This document shows positions 13,385-45,253 of a stretch of DNA of 45,253 nucleotides, one piece after another (the stretch's first letter is position 1; each line of letters begins with the position of its first letter). The position numbers and the translations under genes are program-made. This DNA comes from [Lactobacillus] rogosae (GTDB lineage Bacteria > Bacillota > Clostridia > Lachnospirales > Lachnospiraceae). The notes under the pieces were generated by a model. The model did no database searches and was not told the DNA's origin. It worked only from the letters and a program-made list of their open reading frames with translations. Where the stretch lies: the NCBI GenBank assembly GCA_900112995.1, contig FONU01000024.1, positions 1-45,253 on the forward strand. Reading direction: 5' to 3'.

Positions 13385-15898
13385 ATGAGAATATGTTATA
13401 AGGCAGGAAATGTAACCTATAACACTAACTATTATTCTGTTATTACAGATTCAGTAGAAATAAGAATATGGTTTCTCACAGATGAAATAATCAGAATAAG
13501 AGCCGGCTTTGATGGAGACTGGGATGAAGCTTCATATAGTCTTGCTATGACAGCATGGGACTCAAGAACAGATGAGTTTTTAAAGGGCTATAGAAAAAGA
13601 GTTGAAGTGGCATACTCAGAGCTTGTGGATGGAACTGACAAGGCAGTTATTTGCGGAAGTAAGCTTCGTATAGAAATTGAAAAGAATCCATTCCGTATAT
13701 GTGTATATGATAAAGATGGAACATTATTACACGCAGATATTACAGATCTTGCATATAGAGAGGATTCAAATAAAAGGCGGATACATACAAGCCAGATAGA
13801 GTCAGATGATTACTTTTATGGCTTTGGCGAGAAAGGGGGAGATATTAATAAGGCTGAAAAGTATATGAATATGGCTCCTGGTGATGCAATGGGCTACAAT
13901 CCTAAGGAAACAGATTCATTGTATAAGCATATCCCATTTTATATAAAGCTTTCAGGCTTAACCCACAAGGCAGTTGGATATTTCTATCATACAACAGCAG
14001 AATGTGACTTTAATATGGGACGTGAAAAGAGAAATTACTGGCATCGTTACTCAAGCTTCAGATCAGATGCCGGAGATATAGATCTCTTTCTTATAGCAGG
14101 ACCTTCAATAGGAGAGGTAATAAGCAGATATACAGATCTTACAGGCAAGTCAATACTTCTTCCAAAGGCAGCACTTGGATATCTTGGTTCTTCAATGTAT
14201 TATCCAGAGCTTCCTAAGGATTGTGATGATGCGATACTTGAATTTATAGATACTACCAGAGAAGAAGGAATTCCTGTAGACGGCTTCCAGCTTTCATCAG
14301 GATATTGTGCAGTAGAGACAGAGCAGGGAATTAAAAGATGCAGCTTTACCTGGAATTATAAAAGATTCAAGAATCCAGAAGAATGGTTTGCAAAAATGAA
14401 GGAAAAGGGCATAGTTGTTTCGCCTAATGTTAAACCTGGAATGCTCCTGGTTCATCCGTATCTGGAGGATATGAAGAAAAAGGATATGTTTGTATATGAC
14501 AGCATAAAGGATGAACCCGGTAAAGGTACATGGTGGGGTGGAACTGGAATATTTGTAGATTTCACCAAAGAGCAGACAAGAGAATACTGGAAAGAATACC
14601 TGAAAGAGGGACTTATAAAGTATGGCTGTGAATCAGTATGGAATGATAACTGTGAATATGATTCTATGGTTGATAAGGATGCAAGAGTGTATTTTGAAGG
14701 TAAAGGAAGTACTATTGGTGAGCTAAAGCCGGTAATGAGTAATATCATGTGCCAGCTCTCTAATGAGGCAGTAACGGAATATAATGAGAATATAAGACCA
14801 TTTTCAGTATGCCGTTCGGGACACGCAGGTATACAAAGATATGCACAGGTGTGGGCAGGTGACAATCTTACATGCTGGGATGCATTAAAGTATAACATAG
14901 CAACTATACTTGGTATGGGACTTTCTGGCGTTGCAAATCACGGTTGTGATGTAGGTGGATTCTATGGAGAGTCACCAGAGCCTGAGCTTTTTGTAAGATG
15001 GGTGCAGAATGGTGTGTTCATGCCAAGATTTTCAATACATTCAGTAAATACTGATAATACAGTTACAGAGCCATGGATGTATAGTGGCATGAAGGATTAT
15101 ATTAGAACTGCAATTAAACTTAGATATTCTATGTCTCCTTATCTTTATTCGCTTGAATACAGGGCACATAAGACAGGGCTTCCTATTATGCAGCCAATGT
15201 TTATGGTATTCCAGAACGATAGTAATACATATAATGAAGGCGTGGATTTTATGTGGGGCGATTCATTACTTGTAGCAAATGTTGTAGAAAAGGGTGCAGA
15301 GATAAGAGAGGTATATTTACCTGATACAGGAGATAAAAATATACGTTTTTATGATTATTATACCAGAAACGAATATGAAGGCGGCCAGACTATAAAAGTA
15401 CCTGTGGATATAAGTTCAATTCCAATGTTTATAAAGAGTGGAGCTATTATTCCGATGGCTGGTAATGAGCTTAACAATCTTATGAATGATAAGGTTGATT
15501 CACTTCATATAATAATGGCACCTGATATAGATTCTTCATTCACTATATATGATGATGATGGAAAAACTAATGATTATAAGAATGGCAGCTACTTAAAAAC
15601 TGATATTAGTGTTAAAGCTGGTGCAAAGACATATATCGATTTTGAATATGAAGGCAGTTATGAGAACACAGCAGAAACAATGGAACTTGATGTGATACAT
15701 AGGGAGAAAGCACCATTCTATGTACAGCTTGATGGAAAGGAAGTGCCACATTTCCTTCATAGAAGAAAATACGAGGAAAGTGACATTGGATGGTATTACA
15801 GCCAGACTAAGAAATCAGTGCAGGTAAAGTATCCTAATCCAAAGAAAAACCATCAGGTGCTTATATCATTTGAAGTCTTTGATATGATTGGAATGTAA
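13385..15898 (+). CDS. Glycoside hydrolase family 31 (alpha-glycosidase)
   Basis: An 837-residue intracellular enzyme (no signal peptide). A beta-sandwich fills about the first 240 residues, with DDYFYGFGEKGGDINKAEKY typical of the family. The TIM barrel runs from ~250 to ~590 and C-terminal beta domains follow. The catalytic nucleophile should be D421 in VWNDNCEYD and the acid/base D493 in WAGDNLTCWD, both in the canonical context. GH31 members cleave alpha-glucosides, alpha-xylosides or sulfoquinovosides by retention. Position between an AraC regulator and a TRAP transporter suggests an imported glycoside carrying a carboxyl or other acidic group, because TRAP systems mostly move organic acids. 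Substrate not determinable from sequence alone. Confidence 0.93.
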   Translation: MRICYKAGNVTYNTNYYSVITDSVEIRIWFLTDEIIRIRAGFDGDWDEASYSLAMTAWDSRTDEFLKGYRKRVEVAYSELVDGTDKAVICGSKLRIEIEKNPFRICVYDKDGTLLHADITDLAYREDSNKRRIHTSQIESDDYFYGFGEKGGDINKAEKYMNMAPGDAMGYNPKETDSLYKHIPFYIKLSGLTHKAVGYFYHTTAECDFNMGREKRNYWHRYSSFRSDAGDIDLFLIAGPSIGEVISRYTDLTGKSILLPKAALGYLGSSMYYPELPKDCDDAILEFIDTTREEGIPVDGFQLSSGYCAVETEQGIKRCSFTWNYKRFKNPEEWFAKMKEKGIVVSPNVKPGMLLVHPYLEDMKKKDMFVYDSIKDEPGKGTWWGGTGIFVDFTKEQTREYWKEYLKEGLIKYGCESVWNDNCEYDSMVDKDARVYFEGKGSTIGELKPVMSNIMCQLSNEAVTEYNENIRPFSVCRSGHAGIQRYAQVWAGDNLTCWDALKYNIATILGMGLSGVANHGCDVGGFYGESPEPELFVRWVQNGVFMPRFSIHSVNTDNTVTEPWMYSGMKDYIRTAIKLRYSMSPYLYSLEYRAHKTGLPIMQPMFMVFQNDSNTYNEGVDFMWGDSLLVANVVEKGAEIREVYLPDTGDKNIRFYDYYTRNEYEGGQTIKVPVDISSIPMFIKSGAIIPMAGNELNNLMNDKVDSLHIIMAPDIDSSFTIYDDDGKTNDYKNGSYLKTDISVKAGAKTYIDFEYEGSYENTAETMELDVIHREKAPFYVQLDGKEVPHFLHRRKYEESDIGWYYSQTKKSVQVKYPNPKKNHQVLISFEVFDMIGM

Positions 15899-16022
15899 TA
15901 GCATCAGGCAAAAGCAGGCTGTTACGAAACAGGAGAAATAGTGTAATTCACAGCTTCAGGTTATTGTGCATAAGACCAGTAGCTGACATATAAAAAATGA
16001 GTGCACAGAAATGAGGTATAAT

Positions 16023-17066
16023 ATGTTGAAAAAAATGAAAAAATATATTGCTGTTTTGCTTACAGTTACACTTATATGTTCATTTGGGCTGACAGGCTGT
16101 GGAACAAATAGCGCATCAAACAGTAAGGAAGCTACCGCAGAAAATCCTATGGTATTAACGCTGGCACATGGTTTGTCAGAAAGTCATACAGTACATATAG
16201 CTATGCTGCAGTTCGCAGAAGAGGTTAAGCAGAAGACTAACGGAAGAATAATAATCAAGATATTCCCTAATGGACAGCTTGGTTCAGAGACAGAGAATCT
16301 TGAGCAGCTTCAGGCAGGTGTTATTGCTATGACAAAAGTATCAGCACCAGGTCTTGCAACATATAATGATGCTTATAATACATTTGGTCTTCCTTATATA
16401 TTTAGTAATATTGATGAGTTTTATAAAATAATGGATTCTGATAAAATGCAGGATTTCTTCCTGTCATCAGAAGATGATGGATTCGTAACCTTAACATACT
16501 TTACATCAGGCTCCCGTTCATTCTACACAAAAGATAAGCCTATACGTAAGCCAGAGGATCTTAAAGGAATCAAGATACGTGTTCAGGATATGAAGTCACA
16601 GACGGATATGCTTACAGCACTTGGTGGAACACCGGTAGCAATGTCCTATGGTGACATATATACATCCCTTTCAACAGGTATTATAGATGGAACAGAGAAC
16701 AATGAAACAGCGCTTACAACAGGTAAGCATGGTGAGATATGTAAGGTGTATTCGGTTGATGAGCATGCCATGATACCTGATGTTATGGTTATGAGCTCAA
16801 AGGTATGGAATAATATAGAGCCGGATGATCAGAAGATTATACTGCAGTGTGCAAAGGATGCTACACAGTCTCATAAGGTTATGTGGGATAAGGCAATAGA
16901 TGAGGCAGTAGCACAGGCAAAGGATATGGGTGTTGAATTTATTTATGATGTAGATAAGGAAGCATTCAGAAGTGCAACAGCAGGTCTTGTTACCGAGTAT
17001 AGAAATAAGTATACAGGTGTTGCAGCTTTACTTGACAGAATAGATGAGATAAGGAAAGGAGAGTAA
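16023..17066 (+). CDS. dctP: TRAP transporter substrate-binding protein (DctP family)
   Basis: A 347-residue lipoprotein. I start at the ATG following GAGGTATAAT. The signal peptide MLKKMKKYIAVLLTVTLICS ends in the lipobox LTGC with C26. The mature part shows the DctP hallmarks: LAHGLSESHTVHIAMLQFAE, GRIIIKIFPNGQLGSETENL, DLKGIKIRVQDMKS, and the Arg that pairs with a carboxylate lies in KIRVQ. IIDGTENNETA is also typical. It captures the ligand outside the membrane for the DctQM permease. The 112-base gap from the GH31 gene has no terminator, so one operon is likely. Confidence 0.95.
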   Translation: MLKKMKKYIAVLLTVTLICSFGLTGCGTNSASNSKEATAENPMVLTLAHGLSESHTVHIAMLQFAEEVKQKTNGRIIIKIFPNGQLGSETENLEQLQAGVIAMTKVSAPGLATYNDAYNTFGLPYIFSNIDEFYKIMDSDKMQDFFLSSEDDGFVTLTYFTSGSRSFYTKDKPIRKPEDLKGIKIRVQDMKSQTDMLTALGGTPVAMSYGDIYTSLSTGIIDGTENNETALTTGKHGEICKVYSVDEHAMIPDVMVMSSKVWNNIEPDDQKIILQCAKDATQSHKVMWDKAIDEAVAQAKDMGVEFIYDVDKEAFRSATAGLVTEYRNKYTGVAALLDRIDEIRKGE

Positions 17067-40360: not shown

Positions 40361-40389
40361 ATGGAAGGCTTGATATATGAGCCTTCCAT
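40361..40389 (+). terminator. Hairpin terminator
   Basis: ATGGAAGGCT pairs perfectly with AGCCTTCCAT. The following TATTTATATA is only moderately T-rich. It separates the membrane-protein gene from the agr-like module. Confidence 0.7.
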
Positions 40390-40414: not shown

Positions 40415-40995
40415 TTGAATAATAAAGATGGAGAATTAACAGAGGAAGAGTACAGGGAAGTTATAAAATATGGCAGAGGTATGCTGATTAATATAATTAT
40501 AGGGGTGGTAGCTGCTGTTGTTATTGCAGTGTATATGGGAATGTAAAAAAAGGAGTGGTATTTTTGATGTTATTATTGCCATTAAGACAATATTGTGGCG
40601 GATATCATATGAAAAATCATAATAAATGTATTGTGGCATCAATAATAATATATTTTCTACAGTTAATGTTAATAAAAAATTTGAAAGTTACCATTAGTGT
40701 GCAAATTGTTATGCTAATTTTTGCTTTGGTAATTATTTTAATGTTGGCACCTGTCGATAATATTAATAATAAAATGAACCAAGAAGAAAAGAACTATTTA
40801 AAGAAGAAAATAAGAGTTATTTTAATAATAGAGTTATTTTTATATGCTATTTTTATTGTATTATCAAAAATGGACTACGGATTAATTGTAGTTTTATGTA
40901 TTGCTATAGTAGCGGGATTGCTTATATTAGGGAATATAAGCAATAGGATACAGGAAAGAGGGGAAAAATATGATATACAGGATAGGGATATGTGA
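40415..40995 (+). pseudogene. agrB: AgrB-like peptide-processing membrane protease, split by a frameshift
   Basis: A TTG start after GGAGGGA opens 43 codons: TEEEYREVIKYGRGMLINII then IGVVAAVVIAVYMGM, the usual first helix of AgrB. A stop follows at 40544. The -1 frame continues without a gap as NVKKGVVFLMLLLPLRQYCG then GYHMKNHNKCIVAS, with the catalytic His and Cys (GGYHx6C) and four more membrane segments to 40995. Joined, the two make ~190 residues, the normal AgrB length. The break lies at GGAATGTAAAAAAAGG, so a one-base indel, a sequencing error in the A7 run or recoding are possible. A second start (ATG 40567 after AAAGGAG) could yield the C-terminal piece alone. Confidence 0.75.
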
Positions 40996-41683
40996 CGATG
41001 AACAGTTGACGTGTTCAGAATTGGAGAATTACATTAATGAAATTTTTGAATGTAAAGATGATAAAGCTGAAATATATGTGTGGAACTCAGGTGAAGCGTT
41101 GAAAAAAGATATATCTAATGGGGTGAAGATTGATATTTTGTTTCTTGATATAGAGCTTTTGGACAGCAATGGCATTGAACTTGGTAAATATATAAGAAAT
41201 TATATGAAAAATATGTCAATGAATATTGTATACATATCGTCAATGACAGAATATGCTATGGAATTATTCAAGATACATCCATATGATTTTGTGGTAAAGC
41301 CATTTGATAAGAATGAAATTGAGAACTTAATAGATGAAATGTGTGGATATTATAAGCAGGATAACAAGCATTTTAAGTATTGTGTGTATGGAAAGACCAA
41401 TATGGTTATGATGATGGATATTAAGTATTTTGAGAGCAGGGGACGGCATATAATTATCAATCTTGTGGATAATCAGTCAATACAATATGTGGGACAATTA
41501 AAAAATGAAATAAAAAAGCTGCCATTAAATTTTGTGGAAATTGGCAAATCTTATATTATAAATTTAAAGCATATGAGGGAATGTCACGTCAGTTATGTGG
41601 TTATGGATGATGGAAAAGAGCTGGGGATAAGCAGGGCATACCGCAATTATTTTAATGAGAAAATATTAGAATATAATAGCTGA
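40970..41683 (+). CDS. LytTR-family response regulator (AgrA-like)
   Basis: A 237-residue regulator. The receiver domain spans residues ~1-120 (RIGICDDEQLTCSELENYIN), with the phosphorylated D60 in ILFLDIELLDSNGIELGKYI and PYDFVVKPFDKNEI at the end. The LytTR DNA-binding domain spans ~140-235 (YFESRGRHIIINLVDNQSIQ, FVEIGKSYIINLKHM). It overlaps the agrB-like gene by 26 bases and precedes the histidine kinase, the order of an agr-type quorum-sensing operon. It would bind direct repeats upstream of its targets, possibly the paralogue cassette at 43122. Confidence 0.93.
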   Translation: MIYRIGICDDEQLTCSELENYINEIFECKDDKAEIYVWNSGEALKKDISNGVKIDILFLDIELLDSNGIELGKYIRNYMKNMSMNIVYISSMTEYAMELFKIHPYDFVVKPFDKNEIENLIDEMCGYYKQDNKHFKYCVYGKTNMVMMMDIKYFESRGRHIIINLVDNQSIQYVGQLKNEIKKLPLNFVEIGKSYIINLKHMRECHVSYVVMDDGKELGISRAYRNYFNEKILEYNS

Positions 41684-41732
41684 TTAATAGAATAAAGCGT
41701 GAATATATTTTAGTGAGTTAGAGGGATAAATT

Positions 41733-42980
41733 ATGACATACAATTATATAATATCAGTTTTTGTGGAGTTAGTAAGGACAATACTTATTGTACAGTATTT
41801 TCAAGTGTTTTTTGATAAGAATAATAGTCTGCGCAAATATCTGGTTAGTGGATTTATGTTCGTTGCAACAGTGCTGGTTTATATTACGTTTAATAACGTA
41901 ATATTAAATATGATAATAACATTTGTGACAATATTTGCTATTGCCAATGTATATAGCGGTTCTCTAAAAAAGAAATTCTTATTATCGTGTATGAACTTTG
42001 GAATATGCTGTGCAATAGACATAATATGTTCTTTTATATTAGGAGTTACGGTAGAAAACAGAAATAACGAAGTTATAGGTATGATTATGTCTTTGTTGAT
42101 ATTTTATGTAGTCATATTGATTATAAAGAAAATATATAAAGGTAGAATACAGGATGAATTCGCAGGAAAATGGTATTTTCTGCTTATAATTTCAGCTATG
42201 AGTATTGCTTCTGAATATATTTTATCAATTGATAAGGGGATAGCATATATAACGGTAATAGAGATTAGTTTTATAATTTTATTGATAAATGTCATTTTGT
42301 ATTTCTTTTATCTTTCTATGATAGAACAGTATTCATTACAGCAGGAAATGGAAGCATTAAAGAAGCAAATGGATGTGCATAAGCTGAGAATGCAGAACAA
42401 TATACAGAATGAACGAAATATAAGAGCGATTAAACACGATATGAAGCATCACATAAGGGAGCTTACATATCTTGTGATGGATAATAATTATGCAGAGGTG
42501 AAAAAATATCTTAATTCTTTGGAAAATGATGTGTACGATAATACATCATATATCAATTCTGGAAATCAGATAATGGACGGAATAATTAATTATTATATAT
42601 GTAAATTTAAAGAAAATAAAATCCAATATGAAACAAAGATTGCTGTGCCGGATAAGCTGGATATAAGTTCATATGATTTGAATATTATATTGGGAAATCT
42701 TCTGGATAATTCAGTCCAAAGCACGATTTTAACGCAAGCACCAAGCATAAATATACGAATTGAATATAAGATGGGAATATTATACATATATGTTAGTAAT
42801 TCGTGCTTAGAAAATTCAGTAACCTATAAAAATAATAAAATTATCAGCACCAAGGGAAGTAATCACGGATATGGCATAAGTAATATTGATAAAATTGTAA
42901 AGAAATATAATGGAACTTATAAAATAGACTGCATTAATAATGAGTTTAAAAGCAGCATTTTAATACATTTATGTAGCTAA
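41733..42980 (+). CDS. GHKL-family sensor histidine kinase (AgrC-like)
   Basis: A 415-residue membrane kinase. Six or so hydrophobic segments fill residues ~1-200. A helix follows (EQYSLQQEMEALKKQMDVHK), then the phospho-acceptor H235 in AIKHDMKHHIREL. The ATPase domain has the N-box NIILGNLLDNSVQ and the G-box SNHGYGISNIDKI. This is the AgrC/ComD-type architecture that detects cyclic peptides. It lies 49 bases after the regulator gene. No AgrD-like peptide gene lies on either side, so the ligand is unknown. Confidence 0.92.
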   Translation: MTYNYIISVFVELVRTILIVQYFQVFFDKNNSLRKYLVSGFMFVATVLVYITFNNVILNMIITFVTIFAIANVYSGSLKKKFLLSCMNFGICCAIDIICSFILGVTVENRNNEVIGMIMSLLIFYVVILIIKKIYKGRIQDEFAGKWYFLLIISAMSIASEYILSIDKGIAYITVIEISFIILLINVILYFFYLSMIEQYSLQQEMEALKKQMDVHKLRMQNNIQNERNIRAIKHDMKHHIRELTYLVMDNNYAEVKKYLNSLENDVYDNTSYINSGNQIMDGIINYYICKFKENKIQYETKIAVPDKLDISSYDLNIILGNLLDNSVQSTILTQAPSINIRIEYKMGILYIYVSNSCLENSVTYKNNKIISTKGSNHGYGISNIDKIVKKYNGTYKIDCINNEFKSSILIHLCS

Positions 42981-43121
42981 TATGTGCAAATTATGTCGAA
43001 TTATCTACCAAAAACATCGTTGCCCTAAATAAAGGCATATAAAGTGTTATAATCCAGCTTGTGAACAAGATAAAATGACAAAGTCAGTTAAAAAACTTAG
43101 AAAAATGTAGGAGGAAGTTCA

Positions 43122-43778
43122 ATGGCAGTAGGCGGAATAGGCAGTTTTAGTGCATTGACTAGTTACAGTGGAGTTAATAGCAGTAAAGCTAATAGTGAGC
43201 TGGAATTTGATAAAATCTACCAGCAGAAAACAGATAGTGTAGAGATAAATTCAACAGCAGGAAACAATGACATAATGACAATATATGAAATGTTATGTTC
43301 AGAATTTCCAGAAGCTAATTACATATTGGAAGATAGAAGTGATGAAGGAAATCTGTTTTTTAATAATGTTGATACACGAATAGGAAAAGATTTTGGAAAT
43401 CCAAGTAAAAAGAATGTATTTATAGATGTGGGGGTAATTAAGAAAATACAAGAAGACCCGTCTTATTATTTAGAAGCCAAGTTGGATTTGCAACAAATAA
43501 TTGAACATTATGATGAGGCACGAACCCACGGTGGTTCAGATTTGCCATATACTACTGGTGAGCTTGATTATGAAAATGGTAGAATACAAGCTGGATGGAG
43601 GTATGATAGTAAGTGTTGTCAGGAAGCTGTGGCAAAAGAAGTTAAAAAGCTGGAGAGTCCTAAATTATCAGATGCAATCAATTATGACTATATTAAAGAT
43701 AAGATGGATACTATGCTGGATGATTTTATGGATAAAGTAACGGAAGGTATAGTAGGAGAAGATAAAGAAGAGGGGTAG
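43122..43778 (+). CDS. DUF6033-like protein, paralogue 1
   Basis: A 218-residue protein starting at an ATG after GTAGGAGGAAG. It begins MAVGGIGSFSALTSYSGVNS and contains QQKTDSVEINSTAGNNDIMT, YEMLCSEFPEANYILEDRSD, a core FIDVGVIKKIQEDPSYYLEA, and a helical end NYDYIKDKMDTMLDDFMDKV. There is no signal peptide, although the Gly/Ser start resembles that of secreted flagellar or filament-associated proteins. It is nearly the same as paralogue 2 at 44179 over its first 75 and last 35 residues. The layout recalls the DUF6033-like protein at 977. Function is unknown; it directly follows the agr-like genes. Confidence 0.7.
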   Translation: MAVGGIGSFSALTSYSGVNSSKANSELEFDKIYQQKTDSVEINSTAGNNDIMTIYEMLCSEFPEANYILEDRSDEGNLFFNNVDTRIGKDFGNPSKKNVFIDVGVIKKIQEDPSYYLEAKLDLQQIIEHYDEARTHGGSDLPYTTGELDYENGRIQAGWRYDSKCCQEAVAKEVKKLESPKLSDAINYDYIKDKMDTMLDDFMDKVTEGIVGEDKEEG

Positions 43779-43784
43779 ATAATT

Positions 43785-44165
43785 ATGAAAAAGAGAGTAT
43801 TAAAGAGTTTAATAGCAGCATTTATGTGTATGGTTGTAATTGTAGCAACAAGTGTTTCGACATTTGCAGCACCTTATGAGGCAAAGAGATTAGCATGTGA
43901 TAACTGTCATACATATAATGCAAGTTATGGGTATAAATCGCATGAATACTCTTATACAGAGGTTATATCAGCAGGAAAGTATTGCAGATTTTGTGGAAAG
44001 ACAGTTCCGGAAGGTGAGTCACACACATATATGTACACTGGGGATGTATATTATTTTATGTGCAGTCGTTGCAGTACTGTATATAACAAGGAATATATAC
44101 AGCCAATATATGCACATTATACAAATAATGTACAAGATTATTATAATTATAATAATTATAAGTAA
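43785..44165 (+). CDS. Secreted Cys-rich (CxxC) protein
   Basis: A 126-residue exported protein. Residues 1-28 are a clear signal peptide (KKRVLKSLIAAFMCMVVIVA, ending SVSTFAA). The mature part carries three CxxC pairs, CDNC, CRFCG and CSRC, in Tyr-rich surroundings, fitting one or two zinc ribbons or disulfide knuckles. The last ~20 residues are Tyr/Asn-rich (NNVQDYYNYNNYK). It starts six bases after paralogue 1 and ends 13 bases before paralogue 2, so all three form one transcript. I do not recognise the family. It could be a secreted effector, or an antigen co-produced with the flanking proteins. Confidence 0.8.
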   Translation: MKKRVLKSLIAAFMCMVVIVATSVSTFAAPYEAKRLACDNCHTYNASYGYKSHEYSYTEVISAGKYCRFCGKTVPEGESHTYMYTGDVYYFMCSRCSTVYNKEYIQPIYAHYTNNVQDYYNYNNYK

Positions 44166-44911: not shown

Positions 44912-45253
44912 TGTACCCAGAATCCTGGACACATTGACTATTGCTCAGGCTCAACACATGGATGCTATCCGATATTTAACGGGCGGCATCCATTTTGTTT
45001 TTGCTTGAATTCTTTTATTATTGTAGTATTCTATGTATTCTTCAATAGCTATTGAGAATTCCTCAAAAGAAGAATACTCTTTCTCGCAGCCATAATACAT
45101 CTCATTTTTTAATCTTCCAAAGAATGTCTCCATTATACAATTATCATAGCAGTTTCCTTTTCGTGACATAGATTGTATTATGCCGCGTTTTTTCAGTTCA
45201 TTCCGATAATAAGCATTCTGATACTGCCAGCCTTGATCAGAATGTATTATAAG
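44912..45253 (-). mobile_element. IS3-family element, partial (runs off the right edge)
   Basis: The end begins TGTACCCAGAATCCTGGACA at 44912, similar to the end of the complete IS at 2581 (TGTACCC and a closing GACA). The transposase gene reads inward from the window edge on the minus strand. Only the right end of the element is visible. Confidence 0.75.
44951..45253 (-). CDS. IS3-family transposase OrfB, C-terminal part
   Basis: The frame is open to the window edge, so the gene is partial at its 5' side and the apparent start inside is not real. Visible text includes LIIHSDQGWQYQNAYYRNEL (second catalytic Asp), SMSRKGNCYDNCIMETFFGR with the catalytic Glu of METFF, and the end EEYIEYYNNKRIQAKTKWMP. 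This belongs to the IS150 branch and differs from the transposase at 3234, so two different IS3-type elements are present. Confidence 0.9.
   Translation of the reverse strand, partial: LIIHSDQGWQYQNAYYRNELKKRGIIQSMSRKGNCYDNCIMETFFGRLKNEMYYGCEKEYSSFEEFSIAIEEYIEYYNNKRIQAKTKWMPPVKYRIASMC

Follow-up and report, generated by a model that had tools for sequence, protein, structure and literature searches.

A probably degenerate agr-like module in [Lactobacillus] rogosae, with lesions in agrB and agrD beside intact regulator and kinase genes

Can an agr-like quorum-sensing locus whose agrB is split still send a signal, and is anything left there to receive one? The locus lies in the window, by which we mean the whole stretch analysed, the 45,253 nucleotides (nt) of contig FONU01000024.1 from the [Lactobacillus] rogosae assembly GCA_900112995.1; the window is an entire contig (C39) of a genome of 2,815,897 bases in 49 contigs. 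The original prediction, made from the letters alone, described two agrB frames joined at an A-rich site and no agrD, beside intact regulator and kinase genes. It left a choice between an agrB that has died in a system that listens without speaking, an AgrB made by recoding, and a wrong base call. We find that agrB is broken by a frame change, that agrD is reduced to its tail, and that the regulator and kinase frames are intact in a layout shared with relatives (Table 1). The module is thus probably a degenerate one, belonging to a Lachnospira-type gut bacterium, its sender broken and its receiver intact.

The division of agrB into two frames with a -1 offset was confirmed by the segments of the AgrB profile that each covers. 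Frame 2 matches Pfam AgrB with 95.3 bits, and frame 1 reaches 19.2 bits (E 8.2e-4), under the 23-bit cut-off; the locus therefore shows a family match in a split gene, and a working protein from it is a matter of prediction only. The His and Cys of the GGYH...C motif, which are catalytic in S. aureus AgrB, are present as claimed, both in frame 2 and both invariant in a six-row alignment. By alignment with relatives and the known topology of AgrB, the frame junction falls after the first membrane-spanning part and before the second. The proposed joining at the A-rich site did not stand. The A7 run (40545-40551) lies behind the start of the TAA stop (40544-40546), and the first stop is codon 44 at every run length simulated, from 2 to 13. 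Because the TAA lies ahead of the bulk of the run, slippage of ribosome or polymerase on it is unable to yield AgrB.

The sending half carries another lesion. A working agrD is indeed nowhere visible, as had been stated, but directly 3' of the kinase, just beyond the range 40415-42980 considered earlier, we found a remnant of its tail. The reading frame there has a stop at 43030 and zero start codons up to a Cys at 43060, followed by CEQDKMTKSVKKLRKM and a stop; of a complete AgrD (leader, ring-forming Cys/Ser core and charged tail), the tail alone is left. An eight-sequence AgrD profile scores the remnant at 19.1 bits, the runner-up in 333 kb of the same genome reaching 10.1, and 2000 dinucleotide-shuffled versions of the gap all stayed below 11 bits (maximum 9.3). 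A frame-jump aligner likewise matched 43066-43104 to the AgrD tail, with 11 of 13 residues identical to the AgrD of locus L068 and a score of 50 (at most 33 in 60 shuffles). Scores against L065 (48, shuffled 33), L063 (45, shuffled 29) and G002 C1 (42, shuffled 27) were similarly separated, where compared genomes, contigs and locus stretches are labelled G, C and L and G000 is the genome of the window. By our arithmetic the distance from the -10 to the tail is about 120 nt shorter than in L038, which is consistent with a deletion of the agrD start, leader and ring. Since the remnant is a second, independent lesion, it strengthens the 'without speaking' part of the original prediction.

We then looked across the genome for AgrD-like frames, as had been suggested. 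No intact AgrD of this type was found by profile search of the genome, and the three-row AgrD alignment did not list the remnant in the whole-genome search. The NCBIfam AgrD model, applied to the genome at E up to 1, gave a single match, which adjoins a third agrB on C22; that locus has its own regulator and kinase. Simple AgrD patterns run over the window and over 15 kb each of C26 and C22 returned the C22 AgrD alone. We discarded a weak AgrD-like hit at C25:21032, which lies opposite a gene of the other strand and has no tail.

The claim that the regulator and kinase are intact, within 40415-42980, held. Pfam finds LytTR (49.6 bits) and Response_reg (49.2 bits) in the regulator and HATPase_c_5 (64.8 bits) in the kinase, and the two genes span 1.96 kb with zero lesions. 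The kinase can be aligned end to end with the relatives' kinases at 26.5-36.9% identity, in agreement with a GHKL kinase that carries a putative membrane sensor.

To place the locus among relatives, we searched 98 genomes with agrB frame 2 and obtained matches in 40; reading the + strand of 57 loci gave 33 distinct AgrB frames for comparison. The loci compared for the order agrB-regulator-kinase came from Lachnospira and other Clostridia (G002 C1, G002 C2, G009, G021, C26, L062, L063, L065, L066, L068, L069, L070, L074 and L075; L062, L066 and L074 are short contigs). Further labels name the same DNA: L092 is the locus in G002:C1, L036 that in G002:C2, L093 that in G013:C50 and L039 that in G000:C26, and L038 and L064 belong to one contig. 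In these relatives the regulator follows or overlaps agrB, and in AgrD of the window's subgroup the core resembles HYANVxCPxxxYQPK and the tail SVKKLRKF. An agrD of this HYANVxCP...QPK type is present in G002 C1, G002 C2, G021, L063, L065, L068 and L075. Its position varies: immediately 3' of the kinase in L038, L065 and L068, and at an operon head about 5 kb 5' of agrB in G002 C1 and G002 C2. It precedes agrB by 2 kb in L063, follows the kinase at a distance of 5 kb in L075 and, in L077, lies some 3 kb past the AgrB match, with the intervening genes unlisted. No agrD was found near C26 or in G009, where the operons run toward contig ends. As relatives keep agrD elsewhere, its absence beside agrB is not abnormal in itself, and a locus called as agrB without agrD can be a miscall.

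Several of the compared loci have peculiarities of their own. The operon-like stretch 6336-14064 of L092 holds agrD, a small secreted protein, lipoprotein-like and membrane proteins, an ABC ATPase, agrB, regulator and kinase, with 5 kb separating agrD from agrB. At 15667-16142 (-) of L036, the agrD frame extends beyond its usual end and overlaps a 130-amino-acid frame in another phase, which looks like an out-of-frame fusion of agrD with the next gene. AgrB forms the C-terminal part of a 721-amino-acid open reading frame at 1333-3498 of L065, possibly a natural fusion with an unknown protein. L039 (7293-14928) is the second agrB-regulator-kinase locus of the window's own genome, with an uninterrupted agrB 3' of transporter genes; upstream it reaches the edge of the contig, where the end of a TnpB-like zinc ribbon can be read by eye.

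Next to the kinase we found promoter-like DNA. In nine related loci, a direct repeat with a 21-base-pair (bp) register lies 5' of agrD or 3' of the kinase, and a model trained on these sites recovered eight of the nine as the best of their stretch when each was left out in turn, failing for L092. In L036, which lies outside the training set, the best operator site in 18 kb sits just 5' of agrD. The match in the window ranks second of 90,438 window positions, a score equalled in 2 of 1000 shuffles. By operator score alone it is eleventh in 351 kb of the genome, with ten sites higher, none of which is followed at 24-31 nt by a -10 scoring at least 5/6; of the four sites in the genome that score above zero and have such a -10, the window site scores highest. 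The distance from operator to best -10 in ten related loci is 26-30 nt in nine and 20 nt in L063. The S. aureus AgrA consensus, tested as a pair, gave zero sites in five loci; the relatives' repeat differs from it. Taken together, an output promoter 3' of the kinase is probable.

Table 1. Features of the agr-like locus and its surroundings in the window. Invariant columns are those defined over eight relatives.
Feature	Position	Strand	Basis
Terminator-like hairpin of the upstream gene, just 5' of agrB	40361..40389	+	Pattern match only
agrB 5' frame (frame 1), 43 amino acids, TTG start, TAA stop at 40544	40415..40546	+	AgrB profile positions 11-47
AAGGAG 3' of the stop, possible ribosome-binding site for TTG (40564) or ATG (40567)	40550..40555	+	Read in the sequence; function inferred
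agrB 3' frame (frame 2), 146 amino acids, contains active-site motif His and Cys	40555..40995	+	AgrB profile positions 53-182
Response regulator, Response_reg and LytTR, intact	40970..41683	+	Domain profiles; 38/39 invariant columns retained
AgrC-like GHKL histidine kinase, 415 amino acids, intact	41733..42980	+	HATPase_c_5; 35/37 invariant columns retained
Weak match to the relatives' tandem 21-bp operator	42986..43020	+	Trained on relatives' sites
TATAAT, candidate -10, 27 nt 3' of the operator	43048..43053	+	Spacing compared with relatives
agrD remnant: conserved C-terminal tail and stop, without ring segment or start codon after in-frame stop 43030	43066..43110	+	Profile and frame-jump alignment
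First of two similar genes, 218 amino acids, possible output gene	43122..43778	+	No Pfam match of its own; near copy matches DUF6033
Second copy, 219 amino acids	44176..44835	+	DUF6033 20.1 bits, under 25-bit cut-off

These observations suggest how the locus may have arisen and what it may do. In relatives, agrB, LytTR regulator and GHKL kinase stand in this order, and a tandem-operator promoter precedes agrD and the genes that follow it, either immediately 3' of the kinase or opening a transporter operon. In the window the sending half is hit twice, by the frame change in agrB and by the loss of the agrD start, leader and ring segment, so that promoter-like DNA now directly precedes the AgrD tail and then the next gene. 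Most likely the locus yields no signal of its own. The receiver, if working, would respond to peptides of other cells and drive the downstream gene pair. A stronger form of this proposal is a dedicated eavesdropper, in which sending was abandoned while kinase, regulator and agr-type promoter were kept under selection, wired to the DUF6033-like pair and sensing the cyclic peptides of other Lachnospira in the gut; we regard it as a tentative possibility, less likely than not.

Several results weigh against these proposals. The agrB frames retain 12 of the 15 columns invariant in eight relatives, which is no clear erosion, and the contrast in invariant columns between AgrB and the regulator and kinase is no more than suggestive (Fisher p 0.054); by the same measure, relatives with intact genes fall short by as many as 2 of 14 columns (AgrB, C26) and 8 of 43 (kinase, L063). 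The frame-jump score of the remnant against L038 was 35, equal to the best of 60 shuffles (35), and in a whole-genome search with the eight-row AgrD alignment the remnant ranked first with a weak E of 0.05. No agrD was found in the examined stretches of L069 and L070, though agrB is open in both. The window operator falls to -12.9 when L092 is left out of the training, and a general promoter scan listed nothing on the + strand of the post-kinase gap; because of these two results we call the promoter no more than probable.

Whether agrB is truly broken depends first on the base calls. On the error reading, a sequencing or assembly mistake split an agrB that is in fact whole, and agrD alone was lost. 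The A7 run adjoining the split site, the one-base difference between the frames and the apparently intact remainder of agrB would all suit it, but an altered run length alone leaves the stop in place, and a wrong base call leaves the loss of agrD unexplained. We estimated the background of such errors from 2475 open reading frames in 2.03 Mb of G002, matched at no less than 40% identity to 333,370 bases of the window's own genome. Of these, 119,312 bases were comparable, 8,615 of them in the window (agrB itself, at below 40% identity, was excluded), and they held 0 frameshifts, which by our arithmetic sets a 95% limit of about 3 per 119 kb; the reverse comparison, over 137,241 bases of G002, gave one candidate there. 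We consider an error unlikely and favour a true lesion in agrB. Recoding fared worse. It could appeal to the -1 offset and the nearby A7 run, yet the TAA precedes the run whatever its length, no in-frame X XXY YYZ heptamer was found in frame 1, and agrB is uninterrupted in all five of the nearest matches to frame 2 (G009 40%, C26 of the same genome 39%, G002:C2 38%, G021 34% and G002:C1 32%). A short part before the motif was flagged in 4 of the 33 AgrB frames (window, L011, L066 and L080); the L080 frame is open, with only its first start codon late, leaving 3 of 33 without an open N-terminal part. Given such scattered losses and uninterrupted nearest relatives, sporadic loss of agrB agrees better with the data than a conserved recoding signal, and production of AgrB through a ribosomal frameshift or a slipping polymerase at the A-run is hardly credible. 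Among these frames, L066 7145-7707 is an agrB of the same subgroup, from a metagenome-assembled genome, whose N-terminal part is interrupted by an in-frame TGA.

The two halves might also be translated independently, the second one starting at a TTG or ATG behind the AAGGAG, and then combine into a functional split AgrB. The AAGGAG does stand right behind the stop, with the TTG and ATG 8 and 11 nt on, and the motif His and Cys are both in frame 2. Nevertheless, the five nearest relatives have a single chain and, with agrD lost, no substrate is in sight; moreover, the relatives' alignment reads KKG(V/I)VFL as coding here too, so a ribosome site is not needed to explain the purine stretch. We judge this arrangement quite improbable. 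A closer competitor is decay of the whole module, with the receiver intact only for lack of time since the sender was lost. It overlaps with the degenerate-module reading and differs in whether the receiver is used. In its favour are decayed AgrD copies of the same type, with stops, near repeated transposase genes in G013:C50, another genome of the genus (two HYANVACP-type AgrD-like copies at L093 9918-10306, beside two copies of one transposase gene pair), and the missing open N-terminal part of agrB in L011 and L066. Against it stand the lesion-free regulator and kinase, with nearly all of their invariant columns (Table 1), and a -10 still at the usual spacing. Plain decay is a real possibility, if short of an even chance, and a kept listener and plain decay are best seen as sub-cases of one degenerate-module reading. 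Of the three readings first offered, a dead agrB in a system that hears without speaking fits best, with hearing itself no more than a possibility.

Behind the remnant, the two similar genes flank a putative small secreted protein that contains several Cys pairs (43785-44165) and whose Pfam matches are weak and below cut-off. A fragment at 44951-45169 (-) resembles, by eye, the end of an IS3-type transposase and may account for the contig ending there. A 'bacteriocin' label for the relatives' small secreted proteins was dropped, as L092, L038, L065 and L036 gave no Pfam match. An exact pattern from the window had 0 matches in IMG/VR.

Like the agr and agr-like systems of S. aureus (agrBDCA), E. 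faecalis (fsrBDCA) and clostridia (agrBD), the window has an AgrB-type protease, an AgrC-type GHKL kinase and a LytTR regulator, together with an AgrD-type tail remnant and a weakly matching, putative tandem repeat upstream of a candidate promoter. Unlike them, it has a split agrB, no working agrD, the regulator right after agrB and the agrD remnant 3' of the kinase, whereas the orders given in passages of PMC12312760 are agrBDCA, or agrBD apart from agrCA. S. aureus AgrA binds two direct repeats, of which the promoter-proximal ones are centred near -60 according to excerpts of PMC4227749; the centre of the window operator lies about 57 nt before the start site, assumed to be 12 nt after the first -10 base. 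In layout the window resembles the Lachnospira and other Clostridia loci, where the regulator comes after agrB and a tandem 21-bp repeat, weakly matched in the window, stands 5' of agrD or 3' of the kinase; it differs from them in its split agrB and in an agrD that is tail only. Its downstream genes are DUF6033-like, where G002 and G021 instead have a small secreted protein and transporters.

Loss of agr function is familiar in S. aureus, where, in excerpts of PMC8768832, frameshifts in agr genes occur in >5% of genomes and a poly-A tract in agrB is one recurrent site. Agr-defective S. aureus share such frameshifts with the window, in which both lesions are on the sending side. In natural agr-negative S. 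aureus it is mostly the receiver that is lost, according to passages of PMC12312760, the reverse of the sender-side loss seen here. Among the matches listed from the open-licence PMC literature, the excerpts contained no description of this layout or of sender-only loss. For annotation, a practical rule follows from this subgroup: its agrD is to be sought 3' of the kinase or as the first gene of a transporter operon some distance away, not beside agrB. The sender-only loss, in a family whose layout and operator can be compared, makes this locus a concrete candidate for a gut commensal that listens one way.
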